From Chryseobacterium sp. POL2 (GTDB lineage Bacteria; Bacteroidota; Bacteroidia; Flavobacteriales; Weeksellaceae), in assembly GCF_011058315.1 (NCBI RefSeq), contig NZ_CP049298.1:2418001-2482000 (forward strand): a DNA stretch of 64,000 bases, read 5' to 3'. The translations under genes were made by a program, and so were the position numbers. How positions within the stretch are numbered: position 1 is the stretch's first letter; every line of letters starts with the position of its first letter. The notes beneath the pieces were generated by a model, which worked only from the letters and a program-made list of their open reading frames with translations, was not told the origin of the DNA and made no database searches. Shown piece by piece: positions 6,045 to 29,864 of the stretch.

Positions 6045-6072
6045 CTCTTGTAGTTCAAAATATAGAATTACG

Positions 6073-6168
6073 CTTATCCAGAAAGATGGAGGGATTTGAC
6101 CCGTTGAAGTCTTGGCAACCTGCTTAGGTAAGGTGCCACATTCAACCTCAGGAATGAGGAAAGATAAG
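6073..6168 (+). promoter_or_regulatory. SAM-I riboswitch (S-box leader) of metY
   Basis: The aptamer closes with P1 strands CTTATC (6073-6078) and GATAAG (6163-6168). Inside are the conserved internal pieces: CCAGAAAGATGGAGGGA at the 5' side, the invariant CTTGGCAACC (6111-6120), and AGGTGCCA followed by the last hairpin cctcaggaatgagg. These are the core landmarks of the S-adenosylmethionine-binding SAM-I class. High SAM is expected to lower expression of the downstream metY gene. Confidence 0.95.
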
Positions 6169-6204
6169 TCAGAGATTATTTGAAATATATTATTAAAAAT
6201 ATTC

Positions 6205-7679: not shown

Positions 7680-8603
7680 ATGCAAACAACCAATACTGTT
7701 TTGATGATTGAGCCGATTGCCTTCGGTTACAATGCCCAAACGGCAGAGAATAATTATTTTCAAGTAGAACAAAAAGGCTTGGAAGTTCAGGATAAAGCTT
7801 TGGAGGAATTCCATGTTTTTGTTGAAAAACTTAGAAGTAAAGGTGTTAATGTTATAACAATAAAAGATACGTTGGATCCGCATACGCCAGATTCGATTTT
7901 TCCAAACAATTGGGTGAGCTTTGCTGCGGATGGGACAGTTGTACTTTATCCGATGTTTGCGCCCAACAGACGTGCAGAACGCCGTGAGGATGTTTTAAAC
8001 GCAATTAAATATAAAGGTTTTAATATCACTAAAATCGATGATAGAAGCAACGCTGAAAAAGATGAAAAATTCTTGGAAGGTACAGGAAGTATGATTTTCG
8101 ATCATGATCATAAAATTGCTTATGGCTCTGTGTCGTTGAGGTTGGACGAAAAACTATTCCGTGATTTCTGTGCAGAGTATGGCTATACGCCAATTGTTTT
8201 TCATTCTTACCAAACGGTGGATGGAATCAGGCTTCCGATTTATCATACCAATGTGATGATGTGTGTCGCGGATAGATTTGTGGTGATTTGCCTTGATTCT
8301 ATTGATAATGAACTGGAAAGAGAAAAAGTGATTGAAGTGATTAAATCTAGCCAAAAAGAAATCGTAGAAATCTCGGAAGAACAACTTCAGCAGTTTGCAG
8401 GAAATATGCTTCAGGTTCAGAATGATCATGGTGACAAATTCCTTGTGATGAGTCAATCGGCTTATCGCTCTCTAGATAAACATCAGATCGCACAAATTGA
8501 ACAATATTGTGAAATTATCTATTCGGATTTAGAAACGATAGAAACTAACGGTGGCGGAAGTGCGCGTTGTATGTTGGCGGAGGTTTTCCTTCCTAGAAAT
8601 TAA
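7680..8603 (+). CDS. ctlX: citrulline utilization hydrolase CtlX-type / arginine deiminase-related protein
   Basis: A 307-residue member of the arginine-deiminase fold whose sequence matches the group named CtlX, implicated by others in citrulline use. Signature segments are FPNNWVSFAADGTVVLYPM, the acidic LEGTGSMIFDH, the histidine in LPIYHTNVMMCV, and the nucleophile region NGGGSARCMLAEVFLPR near the C-terminus. All superfamily catalytic positions seem to be kept. It ends 14 bases before a copy of the dispersed repeat, beyond which the polyamine-like operon begins. CtlX activity on citrulline is from family naming; the product in this organism is unproven. Confidence 0.8.
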   Translation: MQTTNTVLMIEPIAFGYNAQTAENNYFQVEQKGLEVQDKALEEFHVFVEKLRSKGVNVITIKDTLDPHTPDSIFPNNWVSFAADGTVVLYPMFAPNRRAERREDVLNAIKYKGFNITKIDDRSNAEKDEKFLEGTGSMIFDHDHKIAYGSVSLRLDEKLFRDFCAEYGYTPIVFHSYQTVDGIRLPIYHTNVMMCVADRFVVICLDSIDNELEREKVIEVIKSSQKEIVEISEEQLQQFAGNMLQVQNDHGDKFLVMSQSAYRSLDKHQIAQIEQYCEIIYSDLETIETNGGGSARCMLAEVFLPRN

Positions 8604-8617
8604 TCTTTTTGTATGTG

Positions 8618-8723
8618 ATGACCAATCTCTAGCCCCGATGGAAGCGGCATCCTTTTTTGAGGTGGCTGAGCGGAGCCGAAGCCCCGTAACAAAAGATACA
8701 GCGGACAGCGGGAATAAGCTTCC
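8618..8723 (+). repeat. dispersed GC-rich repeat, copy A
   Basis: This segment is strikingly GC-rich against its neighbours. Its first 38 bases (8618-8655) are identical to 15078-15115, and its right end (agcggacagcggga) recurs in copy B. Left landmark: agccccgatggaagcggcat. The ends are loosely complementary, suggesting a folded RNA or DNA form. It lies just after the ctlX stop codon, in the same sense. A short overlapping ORF here is an artefact of the repeat. Confidence 0.85.
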
Positions 8724-8770: not shown

Positions 8771-9121
8771 ATGAATGACAAAGGGCTTCATATTTTAATA
8801 ACTTTAAAAACAGAAAAAAAAGATTTGCTTTTGGATTGTGAATCTTTTGAATCTTTTGCAATTTCAACTTTAGAAAAATATGAAGCAGAAGTTGTGGGGA
8901 AATGCAGGCATATTTTTGATAACCAGAGTTATACTACTACGATTGTTTTGAAAGAATCGCATCTGTGTATACATACTTGGCCAGAATATAATCAACTGCA
9001 ATTCGATGTTTTTTTATGTAATTATTTACAAGATAATACGAAAAAAGTGGAAGCTATCGCAGAGGATATCGTTTCATATTTTGAAGGAGAAGTTTTGCAA
9101 CAAGATAAAATATATCGCTAA
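8771..9121 (+). CDS. S-adenosylmethionine decarboxylase-like pyruvoyl enzyme (SpeD family)
   Basis: A 116-residue class 1b SpeD-like proenzyme that should self-cleave to form a pyruvoyl cofactor. The processing site is Glu62-Ser63 in [14 protein letters not shown]. His68 and Cys83 (VFLCN) fall at the same numbers as the processing and catalytic residues described for the Thermotoga enzyme. The segment after Cys83 reads N where the family normally has G, and the stretch between (NQLQFD for the usual GYAALD) is divergent. The substrate may therefore be SAM, or ornithine/arginine as in neofunctionalised SpeD proteins. Its stop codon overlaps the next start (TAATG), so it begins a translationally coupled operon. 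Confidence 0.85.
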
Positions 9122-10548
9122 TGGAGTTCGTTTGTCCAGTTTGTAATATAAAAAATCAGCATCAGCTTGACTTTATAATCGAAGAATATGTTTGTTCCTC
9201 ATGTTATAATCTTATTGATGTCAGACAAAACAAATCGAGAAAACAATTACCTAGACAAGGAAGTAATGTGGTTTTAGACACCACAAAACGCGGAATAATA
9301 GATGGTGTAGAGTATTTTGTGGTTGCAGTCACTTGTCGCAACTATGCTAATGTTGCGGAATGGAGAGAATATTTTCTAAAAGACAAAGATGGTAATAATG
9401 CCTTCCTGAGTGAGAGCGATGGACATTGGGTGTTTTTAAAATTGCAAGATGAAGCTTTTAATGAGCATCGTGGTTATTGTGATTTTAAAGGCAAATTATA
9501 TAGACATTATGAGACAACACCAAGTTCAGTTTCTTATCTGGAAGGTTTTTTTGAGGATAGAGTGAGTTTTAAAGTTGCTACATATAAAGAATACGTCAAT
9601 GGTACAGAAATGGTCTCTTGGGAGCAAAGCGGTTCGGGGAAAGTTTTTTTCTGGGGAAAACATATTTCTAAATACAAGATCAAACAACAATTTCTGCCGA
9701 ACTATATGCCAAGCTATCAAGGTATAGGTATTGTCCAACCCTTTTATGTAAATATAAAACAGGTAGCTCCGATTTTTGTAATGACAGTTTTGTTGATGAC
9801 TTTGTTTCAGATTTTTGTAACGAGTAATAACAACAACAAAATAGTTTTCGACCAAAGAATTTTATATAGAGATATTTTTAATAAAGAATTAATCACCAAA
9901 AGTTTTAGCTTAGAGGGTGCATCTGCTCCTATGCAAGTAAAATTGGCTACAGATGTTGATAATTCTTGGGCAAGTATAGAGCTTAGTCTTGTTAATGAAA
10001 AAACGAATGAAGTGACCTATGCAACCAAAGATATAGAATATTATCATGGTTACGAATCTGGTGAAAGCTGGAGCGAAGGTTCCAAAACTGAAAAGTTTAA
10101 CTTATGCGGAGTAGCTCCAGGGAATTATCATTTTGTAATTGCTGCCCAAAAGGAAAAAGCGCCTTACATTTACAATGACGTCTATATATCTGAGGATAGA
10201 TCCAAAAGTTATGTTATGACCAACGACGGTTTTATGGATGTTATTGAAAACCCTACTGGAGATAAGATGGCTATTAATCTTTCAAATTTAGAGAATAATA
10301 ATCCAGTCGTTTTTAAAGAATTAGAAGCAGCAAAACTTTTTACAAAGAATAATCCATCAGCTGTGCTATCTATCAACGAAGAAGAAACTAATACTGATTT
10401 TGGTATTACAGCAGAATGGCTACCAGTTAGCTATAGGAATTTTGTGATTATTATAATTGTAATATTAGCTTTGGGTATAGGATTATATTTTTTGAAAGGA
10501 TATTTTGATACGATGAAGTGGAAGAACAGCTCTAACTCACCTTATTAA
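9121..10548 (+). CDS. DUF4178 domain protein with zinc ribbon and two membrane segments
   Basis: A 475-residue protein of unknown biochemical role. It opens with a zinc ribbon (CPVC at 5-8, CSSC at 25-28). A DUF4178-like domain covers about residues 40-190 (GVEYFVVAVTCRNYANVAEW, then DGHWVFLKL). One transmembrane helix follows near 217-235 (APIFVMTVLLMTLFQIFV). A long, probably extracytoplasmic, region follows and a final helix near 440-462 (NFVIIIIVILALGIGLYFL). DUF4178 genes commonly occur beside SpeD, SpeE and DUF350 genes, as here. The membrane layout suggests a scaffold or delivery factor for the polyamine-type product; that is inference. Confidence 0.75.
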   Translation: MEFVCPVCNIKNQHQLDFIIEEYVCSSCYNLIDVRQNKSRKQLPRQGSNVVLDTTKRGIIDGVEYFVVAVTCRNYANVAEWREYFLKDKDGNNAFLSESDGHWVFLKLQDEAFNEHRGYCDFKGKLYRHYETTPSSVSYLEGFFEDRVSFKVATYKEYVNGTEMVSWEQSGSGKVFFWGKHISKYKIKQQFLPNYMPSYQGIGIVQPFYVNIKQVAPIFVMTVLLMTLFQIFVTSNNNNKIVFDQRILYRDIFNKELITKSFSLEGASAPMQVKLATDVDNSWASIELSLVNEKTNEVTYATKDIEYYHGYESGESWSEGSKTEKFNLCGVAPGNYHFVIAAQKEKAPYIYNDVYISEDRSKSYVMTNDGFMDVIENPTGDKMAINLSNLENNNPVVFKELEAAKLFTKNNPSAVLSINEEETNTDFGITAEWLPVSYRNFVIIIIVILALGIGLYFLKGYFDTMKWKNSSNSPY

Positions 10549-10558
10549 TTTTCTAAAA

Positions 10559-10750
10559 ATGAAAAATGTTTTCAATTATATTAAATCGAATTGGTTGCTA
10601 CTGAGTATTGGTTGCGGATTTTTTGTTTGGTTTGTCTACCTGACTTATTCTGGGAACCAATGGTGCGATTGTGTCAAAACTGAAAAAATTCAAGATGGGC
10701 AACGTACAAATACACATACAAGAAGTTTTTACAGATTTTATCATAAATAA
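10559..10750 (+). CDS. small single-pass membrane protein with CxC motif
   Basis: 63 residues, not recognised as any named family. It has one hydrophobic helix (WLLLSIGCGFFVWFVYLTY) followed by NQWCDCVKTEKIQDG, where two cysteines form a CxC pair just outside the membrane, and a basic tail (TRSFYRFYHK). It starts 10 bases after the DUF4178 gene and ends 12 bases before the DUF350-like gene, which supports its being a real operon member. By position it resembles the small DUF4247-like genes seen between DUF4178 and DUF350 in other bacteria, but I cannot confirm homology. Confidence 0.6.
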   Translation: MKNVFNYIKSNWLLLSIGCGFFVWFVYLTYSGNQWCDCVKTEKIQDGQRTNTHTRSFYRFYHK

Positions 10751-10762
10751 AAAATAAAAGAG

Positions 10763-10978
10763 ATGGGAGAATTTAATTACTTACCGATTATAAATTCGAT
10801 ATTGTATTCTTTTTTAGGAATTGCAATTTTGGTACTTTGCTATTGGATTATTGAAAGGTTGACACCAGAAAAAACCTGGCATGAAATTTCAAAAAATAAT
10901 AATATGGCGCTAGCTATTATTTTTGGTGCCTTTATTATTGGGATTTCTATTATCATAAGCGCCGCAATACATGGGTAG
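10763..10978 (+). CDS. DUF350-like membrane protein (half-length, two helices)
   Basis: 71 residues with two membrane helices: NSILYSFLGIAILVLCYWII and MALAIIFGAFIIGISIIISA. The segment between them (TWHEISKNNNMALAI) has the short polar hairpin found in DUF350 repeats such as YjfL. Full DUF350 proteins are about 130 residues with four helices, so this is a single repeat that may work as a dimer. Its end overlaps the start of the aminopropyltransferase gene by 8 bases, showing tight coupling. Confidence 0.7.
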   Translation: MGEFNYLPIINSILYSFLGIAILVLCYWIIERLTPEKTWHEISKNNNMALAIIFGAFIIGISIIISAAIHG

Positions 10979-12485
10979 AATAAAACTCTCTTTTGAGATT
11001 TTGTTGCTTTTTTCGGTGTTTGTAATAGCAACTTGTGGTCTGGTATACGAGTTGGTTGCGGGTGCTTTGGCAAGTTACCTTTTGGGAGATTCTGTGAAAC
11101 AGTTTTCTTTCATTATCGGTGTATATCTTTTTGCAATGGGTGTGGGCTCTTATTTGGCAAAGTTTGTTAGAAAAGATCTTATTGACAAATTCGTAGAAAT
11201 CGAAATCCTTGTAGGCGTTATTGGAGGAATAAGCTCTATAGTCTTGTTTACAATTTTTAACACAACAGACCATTTTGAGTGGGTATTGTATATGTTTGTA
11301 TTTGTAACAGGATGTCTTGTGGGGTTAGAAATTCCTTTATTGATGAATATTCTCAAAGATAGAGTAGAGTTTAAGGATTTGGTTTCCAATGTGTTTGCAT
11401 TTGACTATATTGGTGCGCTTATCGCCTCAATTCTGTTTCCCTTAATATTAATTCCGAAACTCGGGATTCTTAGAACACCACTTTTCTTTGGACTCATCAA
11501 TATCTCCGTTGCTATATTTCTCTGTTTCTATTTAAAAAATGAAATTAAATCTCGCATAGCTTTACAGACAAAATCGATTATTTCTTTTTTTATTTTGTTG
11601 GGTTTATTTGTTTTTGCTGACCGAATATTATCCCTTTCTGAAGAAAAACTTTATGGCGAAAATTTAATTTATACGCACAGTTCACCATACCAACGGATTG
11701 CTTTAACTAGAAATAATAAAGAGTTTAGGCTTTATCTTAATAATAATTTGCAGTTTTCTTCTACCGACGAATATCGTTACCACGAAGCTTTGGTACATCC
11801 TGCAATGTCCATGGCTCCAAAAATTGAAAGAGTCTTGGTTTTGGGTGGAGGTGATGGTTTTGCAGTTAGAGAAGTTTTGAAATACGCGAATGTAAAATCT
11901 ATAAAATTGGTGGATCTTGATCCAGAGATGACACGGTTTTTTAAAGAAAATACGACAATGCGCCAACTCAATAACGATGCACTGAATAATGCGAAAGTTG
12001 AAATCATTAATCAAGACGCCTATATGTGGGTTAAACAAATGAAGGATACTTTTGATGTCATTATTATTGATTTTCCTGATCCATCCAATTATAGCTTGGG
12101 AAAGCTTTTTTCATTACAGTTTTATATAGAATTAAAAAAAATAACAACACCGAAAACCTATATTTCTGTACAAACGACTTCTCCTTATTTTGCTCCAAAA
12201 TCATTCTGGAGTATTCATAAAACAATTAACCAGGTTTTTCCAGAAGTTAAGGCATACCACACCTACGTACCATCTTTTGGAGAATGGGGATTTTGTTTAG
12301 CTTCTCAAGAGCTGCAGAACAATAAGATTTATAACAAGTTAAATAATCTTCGATTTTATGATTATAACTTTTCGCAGATGGCTTATTTTAATAAAGACAT
12401 GATAGCAAAAGATGTGGAAGTTAACCGTCTCGATAACCAAATTTTAGTAAGATATTTTGATGAAGAGTGGGGAAGGATACAATAG
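10971..12485 (+). CDS. membrane-anchored spermidine synthase-like aminopropyltransferase
   Basis: 504 residues: about seven transmembrane helices in residues 5-217, then a soluble SpeE-type Rossmann domain from about 230 to 500. The domain carries VLVLGGGDGFAVREVL, KLVDLDPEM, INQDAYMWV and IIDFPDPSNYSLGKLF. These are the nucleotide and amine-binding landmarks of polyamine aminopropyltransferases. The SpeD-like protein encoded at the head of the operon could supply decarboxylated SAM. Attachment to the membrane and partner genes imply that the acceptor is a membrane-linked or exported amine rather than plain putrescine. It overlaps both neighbours (8 bases upstream, 26 downstream). Confidence 0.85.
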   Translation: MGRIKLSFEILLLFSVFVIATCGLVYELVAGALASYLLGDSVKQFSFIIGVYLFAMGVGSYLAKFVRKDLIDKFVEIEILVGVIGGISSIVLFTIFNTTDHFEWVLYMFVFVTGCLVGLEIPLLMNILKDRVEFKDLVSNVFAFDYIGALIASILFPLILIPKLGILRTPLFFGLINISVAIFLCFYLKNEIKSRIALQTKSIISFFILLGLFVFADRILSLSEEKLYGENLIYTHSSPYQRIALTRNNKEFRLYLNNNLQFSSTDEYRYHEALVHPAMSMAPKIERVLVLGGGDGFAVREVLKYANVKSIKLVDLDPEMTRFFKENTTMRQLNNDALNNAKVEIINQDAYMWVKQMKDTFDVIIIDFPDPSNYSLGKLFSLQFYIELKKITTPKTYISVQTTSPYFAPKSFWSIHKTINQVFPEVKAYHTYVPSFGEWGFCLASQELQNNKIYNKLNNLRFYDYNFSQMAYFNKDMIAKDVEVNRLDNQILVRYFDEEWGRIQ

Positions 12486-14055
12486 AAGAGGCTTTGTTTT
12501 AACAATGTTTTGGGGCAGCATGATGTTGCCTTTTTTACAATTCTGTTCTAAGAAAGCAAAATCATTTTTACTAAAAATTACAGGAACTAATCATATTTTG
12601 GGACATCGCCTTTGGGCTAAAGATTTTCCAAAAGTTTCCGAAGTTATCCGTACGGAGGTATTGATAGTTGGTTCGGGCATTTCGGGATTATCGGCTGCAC
12701 GAGAACTTTCGATGCATGCCAAAACAAACTTCTTGATTTGTGAAATGGAAAGTTTCATAGGAGGTAATTCTTCCAATGGAGAAAACAAATATTCTAAATA
12801 TCCACGTGGAGCTCATTATCTTCCGCTTCCTAATAAAGACAATCAAGAACTTATTGATTTTTTGAAAGAAGCCAAAATCTATCTAGGCGACGATGAATAT
12901 GAGGATCCAATTTTGGATGATTATCAATTAGTTTTTCCGCAAGATGAACGATTGTTTTTCAAAAATGCTTGGCAAAATGATATAATTCCGCAAAGAGGAC
13001 TAGATGAAAATTCTAAACAAGAGTTTGATCGTTTCTTTAAAATGATGAATGATTTTAAACTAAAAAAAGATGATTTTGGAAAATTTTGGTTTACAATCCC
13101 TAGTCAAAATGTAAGTCAGAATGAAGAGACTAAAAAACTCGATAATTTAAAATTTAAAACTTGGCTGGACGAAAATGATTTTAAATCCCAAGAACTTCTA
13201 TGGTATCTAGATTATGCATGCAAAGATGATTATGGACTAGGGATTGAGTATGTTTCTGCATGGGCAGGGATTAATTATTTTGCAGGAAGAAAACATGATT
13301 GGGCACCCAAAAAATCTGACCAAGTTATGACTTGGCCAGAAGGTAATGCACGCTTATCAAAACATCTTGCTGTACACTCTGAAAACAAAATTCTAAAACA
13401 ACATCTGGTGTTTGATGTTATAGAAACAGAGCAGAATGTTGAAGTTTTAGTTTTTGATAATGTTAACAAAAAAACGATTAAAATTGTTTCTGATAAGTTG
13501 ATTATGGCAACACCTCAGTTTGTTAATAACTTTTTTTTTAAAAACAGAAAAATAAAAAATTTCACATACGTGCCTTGGTTGTTGGCGACCTTAACTTTGG
13601 ATAAAGATTTCGGAGGTGGTGAAGAATTAGCATGGGATAATGTTATCTATGGAGGAGAAGGTTTAGGCTATATCTACGATCAACATCAAAATATTTCTCA
13701 AAATATAGGGCATAAAGTTATCACGTATTACAGAAGTTTTTCAACTGATGATTCTAACAAAGCAAGAAAACAACTTTTTAAAATGAAAGAAGAGGATCTA
13801 AAAGAATTGGTTTTAAAAGATTTCCGAATAGCGCATCCTCTTATTGATGATTTTATCATCGAGATTGAGTTTAATAAAATTGGACATGCTATGATTGCAC
13901 CTACTCCTGGGAAAATTTTTGGAAAAGATTCTCAAATAGCTAAAGAGGATATTAATCGGAAAATTTTTTTCGCACACTCGGATTTGTCAGGAATTTCCAT
14001 TTTTGAAGAGGCCTTTTATCAAGGTATTTATATAGCTCGTAAAATTTTGTCATGA
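12460..14055 (+). CDS. FAD-dependent amine oxidase-like oxidoreductase with Tat-type N-terminus
   Basis: About 531 residues. An FAD-binding Rossmann motif lies near residue 65 (VLIVGSGISGLSAARELS), followed by a flavin amine oxidase-like body (GGNSSNGENKYSKYPRGAHY; MTWPEGNARLSKHL). A C-terminal FAD segment reads FFAHSDLSGISIFEEAFYQG. The ATG at 12460 is preferred over an in-frame TTG one codon earlier. The start has NRRGFVLTMFWGSMMLPF, twin arginines before a hydrophobic stretch, as in Tat signals. A cysteine follows (LQFC), but a lipobox is doubtful. If exported, it would oxidise an amine outside the cytoplasm. It overlaps the aminopropyltransferase gene by 26 bases. Confidence 0.75.
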   Translation: MKSGEGYNRRGFVLTMFWGSMMLPFLQFCSKKAKSFLLKITGTNHILGHRLWAKDFPKVSEVIRTEVLIVGSGISGLSAARELSMHAKTNFLICEMESFIGGNSSNGENKYSKYPRGAHYLPLPNKDNQELIDFLKEAKIYLGDDEYEDPILDDYQLVFPQDERLFFKNAWQNDIIPQRGLDENSKQEFDRFFKMMNDFKLKKDDFGKFWFTIPSQNVSQNEETKKLDNLKFKTWLDENDFKSQELLWYLDYACKDDYGLGIEYVSAWAGINYFAGRKHDWAPKKSDQVMTWPEGNARLSKHLAVHSENKILKQHLVFDVIETEQNVEVLVFDNVNKKTIKIVSDKLIMATPQFVNNFFFKNRKIKNFTYVPWLLATLTLDKDFGGGEELAWDNVIYGGEGLGYIYDQHQNISQNIGHKVITYYRSFSTDDSNKARKQLFKMKEEDLKELVLKDFRIAHPLIDDFIIEIEFNKIGHAMIAPTPGKIFGKDSQIAKEDINRKIFFAHSDLSGISIFEEAFYQGIYIARKILS

Positions 14056-15071
14056 AACAAGCTTGGATACATAATGCCAGAACGGATATAATTTTCATAT
14101 TGTCGCCACCTATTGTAGTCTTAGCGATTGTATTGTTATTTCATCAACAGTTGGAGCAGGTGCAAGATCATTATTCCTTTTTCACATGGCTGTTTTTAAT
14201 AGTTTTTGTTGATGTGGCGCATGTTTATTCTACTTTGTTTAAAACCTATTTTGTAAAAGAAGAATTCCAAAGAAGAAAACTAATGTATCTGGGTATTCCA
14301 ATTTTTAGTTTGATTTTAGGAATTATTCTTTATCAATTTGGAGAGTTGTTTTTCTGGTCTGTTTTAGCTCTGGTTGCAGTCTTTCATTTTGTGCGCCAAC
14401 AATATGGTTTTATGAGACTTTATGCTAGGTTCGAGTCAAAAGGGTTTTCTAAAACTATCGATAATCTCAGCATATATTCTGCTACTATATATCCGATGAT
14501 GTATTGGTTTTGCACGCCTCGTAAGTTCAATTGGTTTGTAGATTCAGAGTTTTCTTGGATGCAGAACTTAAATGTTTTTTTGAGATACTTCACAATGCTT
14601 TACGTTGCAGTAATTCTATTATGGATTGGTAAAAGTATTTTTGAATTTATAAAAACAAAAAGTATCAATATTCCTAAAAATTTATTGATAGTCGGGAGCT
14701 TCTTATCTTGGTATTTTGGAATTGTTTATTTTAATAATGATTTGATTTTTACGTTATTAAATGTCATCTCTCATGGCATACCTTATATCGCGCTAATCTA
14801 TATTAAAGAAATTGAACAAAAATCTGATTCCGGTCTCAGATCTCTCCTTATTTTTAAACAGGCTTTTGGTGTGGTACTTTTTGTATTTGTTATTTTAGGT
14901 TTTGCCCTTTTTGAAGAATTTATTTGGGAAAATCTCGTGTGGAGAGAACATATTAGTTGGTTCGGAATTTCTTCTATAGAAAAGTCTTATTTTGTTTTGA
15001 TTCCACTTTTGGTTGTTCCCCAACTGACACATTATTTGCTAGATGGATTTATCTGGCGACAACAAAAATGA
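14052..15071 (+). CDS. polytopic membrane protein with conserved-looking histidines
   Basis: 339 residues with about eight to nine transmembrane helices and no family I can name securely. Histidines sit at helix ends in recurring contexts: VDVAHVYSTLFKTYF, AVFHFVRQQYGFMRLY, VISHGIPYIALIY and QLTHYLLDGFIW. Such spaced histidines in a membrane protein resemble metal ligands of integral-membrane oxygenases or desaturases, though the classical HxxHH boxes are absent. It overlaps the FAD oxidase gene by 4 bases (ATGA) and is the last gene of the operon. The repeat copy B follows 6 bases after its stop. Confidence 0.6.
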   Translation: MKQAWIHNARTDIIFILSPPIVVLAIVLLFHQQLEQVQDHYSFFTWLFLIVFVDVAHVYSTLFKTYFVKEEFQRRKLMYLGIPIFSLILGIILYQFGELFFWSVLALVAVFHFVRQQYGFMRLYARFESKGFSKTIDNLSIYSATIYPMMYWFCTPRKFNWFVDSEFSWMQNLNVFLRYFTMLYVAVILLWIGKSIFEFIKTKSINIPKNLLIVGSFLSWYFGIVYFNNDLIFTLLNVISHGIPYIALIYIKEIEQKSDSGLRSLLIFKQAFGVVLFVFVILGFALFEEFIWENLVWREHISWFGISSIEKSYFVLIPLLVVPQLTHYLLDGFIWRQQK

Positions 15072-15077
15072 TTTTTT

Positions 15078-15198
15078 ATGACCAATCTCTAGCCCCGATG
15101 GAAGCGGCATCCTTTGGCGTTGGCGTGAGGTGGCGGAGCGTAGCGGAGCCAACCGAGCGACAAGGCTAAAGATATAGCGGACAGCGGGAAAAAGCTCC
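15078..15198 (+). repeat. dispersed GC-rich repeat, copy B
   Basis: Its first 38 bases (15078-15115) are identical to copy A at 8618-8655 in the same orientation. The right end (gatatagcggacagcggga) also matches A. The middle (ggtggcggagcgtagcggag) is longer than in A and matches copy C. It directly follows the polyamine-like operon. Confidence 0.85.
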
Positions 15199-29692: not shown

Positions 29693-29733
29693 TGAAAATG
29701 CCGTTGAGAATGGCTGAAAAAAGAACTTCAGTT

Positions 29734-29836
29734 GTTATCTGTCCAAAATATTTTGGTAGAACGTAGCACCTTCTTCGCTTTCGCAAAGGGTTGCCAAGGT
29801 TTCGTAGGGTCTAGTCCCTCAACCTTTCTGGATAAC
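29734..29836 (-). promoter_or_regulatory. SAM-I riboswitch of the metX operon
   Basis: On the minus strand P1 is formed by GTTATC and GATAAC-type strands at the two ends (29831-29836 and 29734-29739). Between them are CCAGAAAGGTTGAGGGACT, ACCTTGGCAACCC, AAGGTGCTA and a final hairpin, the SAM-I core. Only 41 bases separate it from metX, and I find no strong terminator there. The leader has just a weak stem (CTGAA with TTCAG) and a six-T run. Control may therefore be at translation or use P1 itself. Confidence 0.93.
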
Positions 29837-29864
29837 ATTTTCAATATGTGAATGAACGCTTGTG

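Follow-up and report, generated by a model that had tools for sequence, protein, structure and literature searches.

A conserved C-terminal lysine as the putative substrate of a membrane-bound spermidine-synthase fusion in a seven-gene operon of Chryseobacterium sp. POL2

Background

What do the membrane-bound relatives of spermidine synthase modify? Fusions of a spermidine-synthase-like domain (SpeE) to seven transmembrane (TM) segments are, as far as we have found, without a known substrate. One of them is encoded in the DNA analysed here, a stretch of 64,000 nucleotides of Chryseobacterium sp. POL2 (contig NZ_CP049298.1, positions 2,418,001 to 2,482,000), hereafter referred to as the window, as the fifth of seven tightly packed genes (g1 to g7; Table 1), which also encode an S-adenosylmethionine (AdoMet) decarboxylase (SpeD), a DUF4178 protein, a small single-TM protein (g3), a half-size DUF350 protein, a flavin amine oxidase and a multi-TM protein with four invariant histidines. 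An earlier note on this DNA had suggested that the operon makes an aminopropylated compound, which is then oxidised outside the cytoplasm. We retain the membrane-linked chemistry and the external oxidase of that suggestion, with a protein tail as the favoured acceptor instead: it appears to us slightly better than an even chance that the operon makes a post-translational modification, namely aminopropylation of a tail lysine, and not a free polyamine.

A C-terminal residue code beside 7-TM SpeE

Across 43 aligned g3 sequences just three positions are invariant, G32, H62 and K63, the latter two forming the C-terminus of the protein; no family of Pfam or NCBIfam was found for g3 above its cut-off. 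The CxC motif by which the earlier note had described g3 is lost in two relatives (L031 and L033) that retain the C-terminal HK, so the cysteines are dispensable and the motif is ruled out as the functional centre. That note had grouped the protein among the coupled genes, where it is indeed present; an accessory role is not favoured, as it looks like a substrate.

The census of C-termini comprised 104 loci holding a 7-TM SpeE, and a tail protein was found in all of them (89 by hidden Markov model (HMM) and 15 by hand), ending in HK in 65 loci, in HGK in one, in another residue followed by K in 31 (97 lysines in total) and in Gly-Gly (GG) in seven. One set of 33 loci (L047-L079) was collected with the oxidase as bait and is conditional on its presence; with this set left out, 72 loci show 33 HK, one HGK, 31 other K and seven GG tails. 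As a background, among 653 other open reading frames (ORFs) of at least 100 amino acids (aa) in 60 of these loci, 80 end in K, four in GK, three in GG and none in HK. Forty loci were added after the rule had been noticed (24 from 38 new genomes, plus all new ones of further searches); 37 of their tails were found by HMM, all of which fit the rule (21 GK, 11 HK and 5 GG), and three were placed by hand.

An HK end is present in 62 of the 64 oxidase-bearing loci and in three of the 40 loci without oxidase (L029, L030 and L124, the contig of the last stopping inside SpeE). The relatives without oxidase carry a larger protein with a tail rich in Gly, Ser and Arg that ends in GK; of the 729 columns in an alignment of 27 such proteins only 12 do not vary, and these include two arginines and the terminal lysine. 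The GG tail is found in 7/7 loci with a GSP_synth ligase and in 0/97 loci without it.

The tail moves between carriers of different kinds. Small TM proteins in the g3 position that were missed by the g3 HMM end in GPSHK or GPTHK in Novosphingobium, in NHYHK in L034 and in RFRHGK in Gemmatirosa, and further small TM tail carriers occur in Ensifer and Tritonibacter. In Burkholderia a lipoprotein-like protein ending in YGSHK is placed between SpeD and DUF4178, while L028 has no separate g3 and its DUF4178 protein (29.3 bits) possesses a third TM segment, identified by eye, and the tail SGSHK. In L105 (5260-5964) the DUF4178 domain (52.7 bits) is fused to a GK-tailed protein ending in SRGFGK. ORFs in L118 (3710-5005) and L120 (4010-5422) resemble the fusion in L105, as judged by eye only.

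The pairing of ligase and GG has an outside replicate in proteins encoded beside GspS-like ligases in the absence of 7-TM SpeE, which end in GG in seven of the eight cases examined: YgiB and YjfM of Escherichia coli and the ligase neighbours in Rhizobium, Vibrio, Sulfitobacter, Arthrobacter (where GG ends one of the two neighbours read) and Pseudomonas FeN3W. Six of the cases are plasmid-borne and were picked from 138 matching records. In E. coli K-12 the genes of YgiB and YjfM directly precede those of the ligases YgiC and YjfC, both named peptide--spermidine ligase in RefSeq, and YgiB and YjfM may be natural substrates of these ligases.

Topology of the 7-TM SpeE fusion

The g5 protein matches Spermine_synth (1.4e-40) and NF002956 (642.9 bits, cut-off 472), and with seven segments delineated by hydropathy and charge, followed by a synthase domain above cut-off, it belongs with the 7-TM (PRK03612-type) aminopropyltransferases. 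Its SpeE motifs align with those of solved synthases, including the Asp pair D367-x-x-D370, and the conversion of putrescine to spermidine is a putative activity.

Positive charge alternates along the protein, with a mean number of K+R of 2.6 (N-terminus), 0.6, 2.6, 0.2, 2.8, 0.8, 3.5 and 1.8 (after TM7), and the inner loops exceed the outer ones in 102/102 SpeE sequences. Per residue, with the N-terminus excluded, K+R amounts to 0.197 in the inner versus 0.076 in the outer loops, again in 102/102 sequences and in 70/70 without the bait set. By the positive-inside rule g5 is therefore predicted to have its N-terminus inside and its catalytic domain outside the cytoplasm. An external SpeE domain agrees with the exported oxidase, the lipoprotein-like tail proteins and the layout of the L028 fusion. 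Oxidation outside the cytoplasm and aminopropylation linked to the membrane, both put forward in the earlier note, find support, and the location of the SpeE domain itself on the outer side had not been anticipated.

Proposed mechanism

From the genes, their synteny, the tail code, the charge-based topology and the folds we infer the following scheme of acceptor, transport and order of steps. Cytosolic SpeD (g1) would produce decarboxylated AdoMet (dcAdoMet), which would cross the inner membrane to its outer face via the 7-TM part of g5 and/or the DUF350 protein (g4), the two candidate routes. There the spermidine-synthase-like domain of g5 would move the aminopropyl group onto the C-terminal lysine of membrane-anchored g3. 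Lysine, like putrescine, offers an amine on an aminobutyl chain, so that the product, N-epsilon-(3-aminopropyl)lysine, would resemble spermidine and form an arm at the tip of a flexible tail. In operons with the oxidase, the flavin enzyme g6 may then oxidise the arm so as to mature, cross-link or erase it, perhaps with the help of the adjacent histidine, and g7 might pass on electrons or in turn modify the product. In the sister operons with GG tails, a GspS-like ligase would act on Gly-Gly and the attached amine would replace the encoded lysine, so that the two classes would arrive at comparable arms on flexible tails.

As for the biological role, a link to envelope stress is plausible by analogy with related operons, which have PspA, band-7 and ion-channel neighbours; envelope stress sensing, cross-linking and metal or anion binding are candidates. 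If the scheme is true, it amounts to a new C-terminal protein modification with aminopropyl chemistry outside the cytoplasm, and it implies a dcAdoMet exporter.

Several observations weigh against the modification of a tail. An external SpeE domain needs export of dcAdoMet, and the loop borders for the charge test were fixed on one earlier profile. For the ligase of the GG class, which uses ATP, a cytoplasmic site of action is to be expected. The lipobox-like pattern is present in only 15 of the 27 GK-tail proteins, HK is retained in L029 and L030, which lack the oxidase, an oxidase is paired with GK in L099 and with HGK in L081, and in Leptolyngbya the ligase neighbour ends in GGASS, the exception to the GG pairing. 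Ten tails (L028, L036, L081-L083, L088, L089, L105, L113 and L124) came from scans that were filtered for -HK or -K ends. Conserved C-termini occur also in g4 (ending in IHG) and g5, so C-terminal conservation alone proves nothing. Finally, tail types follow SpeE clades, the pairing of ligase and GG counts as a single event among these loci, and on a tree of 70 SpeE sequences three changes, the minimum, suffice to explain the four tail labels. With labels linked to clades the loci are not independent trials, and the tests that counted them as such (Fisher 6.8e-10; binomial on the charge data) were dropped as proof; the clade-linked pairing is good evidence for tail and enzyme as partners, and weak evidence as far as counting goes.

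Alternative explanations

The reading of the earlier note, in which a small aminopropylated molecule is produced at the membrane and then oxidised outside, we now regard as rather unlikely; the product would be diffusible and the tail protein an accessory. This reading is consistent with the intact active-site motifs of SpeE (D367, D370) and with an oxidase that is nearest to putrescine oxidase and spermidine dehydrogenase. It leaves unexplained, however, why the terminal lysine is invariant and why GG appears exactly where the GSP_synth ligase occurs; besides, according to a study by Li and colleagues from 2019, a deletion of spermidine synthase is reportedly not rescued by such fusions.

The K, HK or GG terminus could alternatively serve as a docking, assembly or proteolysis signal for a SpeE or DUF4178 complex, given that conserved C-termini can be binding motifs and that the fusion of tail and DUF4178 in L028 and L105 suggests a physical linkage. 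Against this, which we judge to be unlikely, stand the coincidence of GG with a ligase that has relatives in E. coli bearing the name peptide--spermidine ligase and the chemical mimicry of the normal SpeE acceptor by lysine. Very unlikely, in our view, is the aminopropylation of a lipid or another envelope amine that the tail protein would present or sense: the 7-TM fusion does sit at the membrane, and PspA, band-7 and ion-channel genes adjoin related operons, but no lipid enzyme was recognised among the seven genes with Pfam and NCBIfam, and the tail code is again left unexplained. That the operon serves mainly to make free polyamines was rejected: it does contain the sole SpeD and the sole full SpeE match of the genome, but a separate DS-family gene exists and a diffusible product leaves the tail code without explanation.

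Organization and conservation of the operon

Table 1. Features of the seven-gene operon and its surroundings in the window
Feature	Position	Strand	Remarks
g1, SpeD-type AdoMet decarboxylase	8771..9121	+	AdoMet_dc match
g2, DUF4178 membrane protein	9121..10548	+	DUF4178 match
g3, small single-TM protein, proposed substrate	10559..10750	+	C-terminus ...FYRFYHK
Codons of His62-Lys63, C-terminal pair of g3	10742..10747	+	proposed aminopropyl acceptor = Lys
g4, half-size DUF350, 2 TM, candidate conduit or partner	10763..10978	+	DUF350 match
g5, 7-TM + spermidine-synthase-like domain	10971..12485	+	NF002956
g6, FAD (flavin adenine dinucleotide) amine oxidase, exported (predicted)	12457..14055	+	NRRGF twin-Arg signal, lipobox-like ...LQFC
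g7, multi-TM protein, candidate redox partner	14052..15071	+	four invariant His (H57, H112, H241, H327)
SAM riboswitch (RF00162)	6071-6170
DDAH-type amidinohydrolase gene	7680-8603
Flavo-1 RNA element (RF01705)	8627-8719
Flavo-1 RNA element (RF01705)	15087-15195
SAM riboswitch (RF00162)	29732-29838

As the earlier note had described, the seven genes overlap or are separated by at most 12 bases, and all their ORFs were found on the plus strand of positions 8771-15071. The spacings from g1 to g7 are -1, 10, 12, -8, -29 (or -26) and -4 bases, the alternative depending on whether g6 starts with the TTG at 12457 or, as judged by eye, with the ATG at 12460.

Conservation was studied in a sample of 296 genomes from across the phylum, with a threshold of E <= 1e-20 for g6. 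Matches to g5 are present in 79 of these genomes, in 22 of them in the full-length 7-TM form, matches to g6 in 12 and to g7 in 20, nine of them strong. All seven families are co-conserved, as the survey of gene neighbourhoods proposed in the earlier note reveals: they are collinear in nine genomes of the sample, i.e. that of the window and eight others. The oxidase adjoins the 7-TM SpeE in 12/12 matches and is followed by g7 in nine; the latter is missing from G002, G212 and G291, and only the five-gene core is present in G289 and G257. In the bait set (32 Chryseobacterium loci, among them that of the soil species C. gregarium, L050, and one of Flavobacterium) the seven genes are collinear in 32/33 loci, and the remaining one, L078, has the identical gene order with broken frames. 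The gene order is thus not due to chance. Beyond these sets, a 7-TM SpeE lies next to the oxidase in all seven plasmid oxidase records (three from Novosphingobium, three from Burkholderia and one from Gemmatirosa). The oxidase thus accompanies the system in no fewer than three phyla, and sightings of g7 are confined to a part of Bacteroidota. The extension of the neighbourhood by the oxidase, as the earlier note had it, is conserved, and that by g7 holds in a narrower range.

Individual genes

The g1 protein is the sole AdoMet_dc match in the genome (Pfam, 5.7e-20), with 71.4 bits against TIGR03330, below the cut-off of 75.65. E62, S63 and H68 are invariant in 51/51 sequences and C83 is nearly so; we take E62-S63 to be the cleavage site and H68 and C83 to be the catalytic residues of the SpeD family. 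With the AdoMet_dc domain and these Glu-Ser, His and Cys positions, g1 groups with class 1b SpeD. The DUF4178 match of g2 scores 22.9 bits by hmmscan, just below the cut-off of 25, and 26.9 bits, above it, in the genome search. By eye, the protein consists of a zinc-ribbon-like cysteine cluster (C5, C8, C25 and C28, invariant in 47 sequences), DUF4178, a TM segment, a beta-rich domain and another TM segment, which makes it a candidate membrane scaffold or sensor. The match of g4 to DUF350 (3.9e-15, above the Pfam cut-off) covers positions 6-66 of 133, half the size of a full-length DUF350. Elsewhere in the genome lie a second, partial Spermine_synth match (24.1 bits) beside the single full one and also a gene of the DS family (145.7 bits), which means that homospermidine could be made outside the operon.

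The g6 protein matches NAD_binding_8/Amino_oxidase and has the fold of FAD amine oxidases, according to Pfam and to a structural model of moderate confidence (predicted local distance difference test (pLDDT) 66.7, predicted template modelling score 0.71). The model is nearest to putrescine oxidase (Z 21.9 over 396 residues, root-mean-square deviation 4.1), with spermidine dehydrogenase also near, and the protein may oxidise an aminopropyl or polyamine substrate. Its signal contains a lipobox-like Cys30, invariant in 25/25 sequences and nearly invariant in 44, and it is probably an exported lipoprotein. A scan of 64 homologues for the twin-Arg pattern returned RR in 21 (one of which, L082, lies in an over-long ORF), RK in 38 and none in five, two of which (L080 and L087) hold RR by eye; the motif of the Chryseobacterium clade is SRK instead of RR. 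In a single genome (L092, 10284-10463) an ORF of 59 aa that looks TatA-like by eye is located just upstream of the operon.

For g7, searches of Pfam, NCBIfam and PDB profiles yielded nothing above cut-offs, and its model is poor (pLDDT 54.9) with unusable fold matches (best E 1.2); a multi-His metalloenzyme and a haem protein are possible readings. Three of 11 weak g7 matches were examined (L043-L045), and none is accompanied by further genes of the operon within the DNA retrieved. L099 (6674-13959) carries two 7-TM SpeE copies on opposite strands and a single GK-tail protein (13261-13959), with one SpeE copy followed by g7 and then by a distant oxidase, i.e. in swapped order.

Genomic surroundings

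The two Flavo-1 RNA elements directly flank the operon on both sides. In the two relatives that were read (L128 and L129), speD and the gene upstream of it are only some 22 bases apart. The DDAH-type gene precedes the operon, and a homologue is present in the fetched stretch of 42/104 loci, all from genomes of the same family or from Chryseobacterium bait loci. Two SAM (i.e. AdoMet) riboswitches are located near this SAM-consuming operon, the first of them upstream of a gene for a Cys/Met enzyme dependent on pyridoxal phosphate (PLP).

Comparison with known systems

The core neighbourhood of AdoMet decarboxylase, DUF4178, DUF350 and the 7-TM SpeE fusion, whose recurrence the earlier note had pointed out, is already in print (PMC11237479), and the oxidase and the four-His protein extend it. 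The PspA-CesT/Tir group 2 operon comprises a 7-TM SpeE fusion, DUF350, DUF4178 and the Ctha_1186 lipoprotein (Ravi et al. 2024, PMC11237479), and 'aminopropylation of other substrates' is mentioned; the paper also names an operon of Shewanella oneidensis MR-1, with a lipoprotein of like kind. The first three components are shared with the operon described here, which has a small HK protein in place of the lipoprotein, a half-size DUF350 and an oxidase; neither PspA nor CesT/Tir was found among its seven genes with Pfam and NCBIfam, which sets it apart from group 2. CesT_Tir_1 does adjoin a GK-class relative (L040), and the Ctha_1186 lipoprotein is presumed to be the GK-tail protein of the census. 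The words 'lysine' and 'C-terminal lysine' are absent from the main text of PMC11237479, and a tail substrate was not found in the literature searched, which covers subscription journals thinly and includes passages of PMC11237479, PMC10407285, PMC12506659, PMC12568646 and PMC10948618. What is new here is the C-terminal HK of g3 and the tail code, which points to one residue.

Another system, reportedly described by Li and colleagues in 2019 (Biochem J 476:2579), is said to consist of an MFS/7-TM spermidine synthase fusion, an AdoMet decarboxylase and DUF350, with a functional decarboxylase, no spermidine and an unknown substrate. The core enzymes are the same; the operon analysed here adds DUF4178 with TM segments and a further domain, the HK-tail protein, the exported oxidase and g7, and beyond that system we propose a candidate substrate. 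Hypusine and deoxyhypusine on eIF5A provide another parallel, as a polyamine-derived arm is placed on a lysine; there the site is internal and cytosolic, and an aminobutyl group from spermidine is attached by other enzymes.

Counterparts outside the 7-TM SpeE loci are the YgiB-YgiC and YjfM-YjfC pairs (DUF1190 and ligase), in which a protein with a Gly/Ser/Arg-rich tail likewise directly precedes the gene of a polyamine-type enzyme; they differ in having a GG tail and a GspS-like ligase and in lacking a 7-TM SpeE. We tentatively suggest, at somewhat less than an even chance, that the -K, -HK and -GG code unites the orphan 7-TM SpeE operons with these two pairs in a widespread extracytoplasmic modification, to which the HK subclass would add flavin oxidation; if true, the DUF1190 proteins of E. 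coli would gain a candidate role as polyamine carriers.

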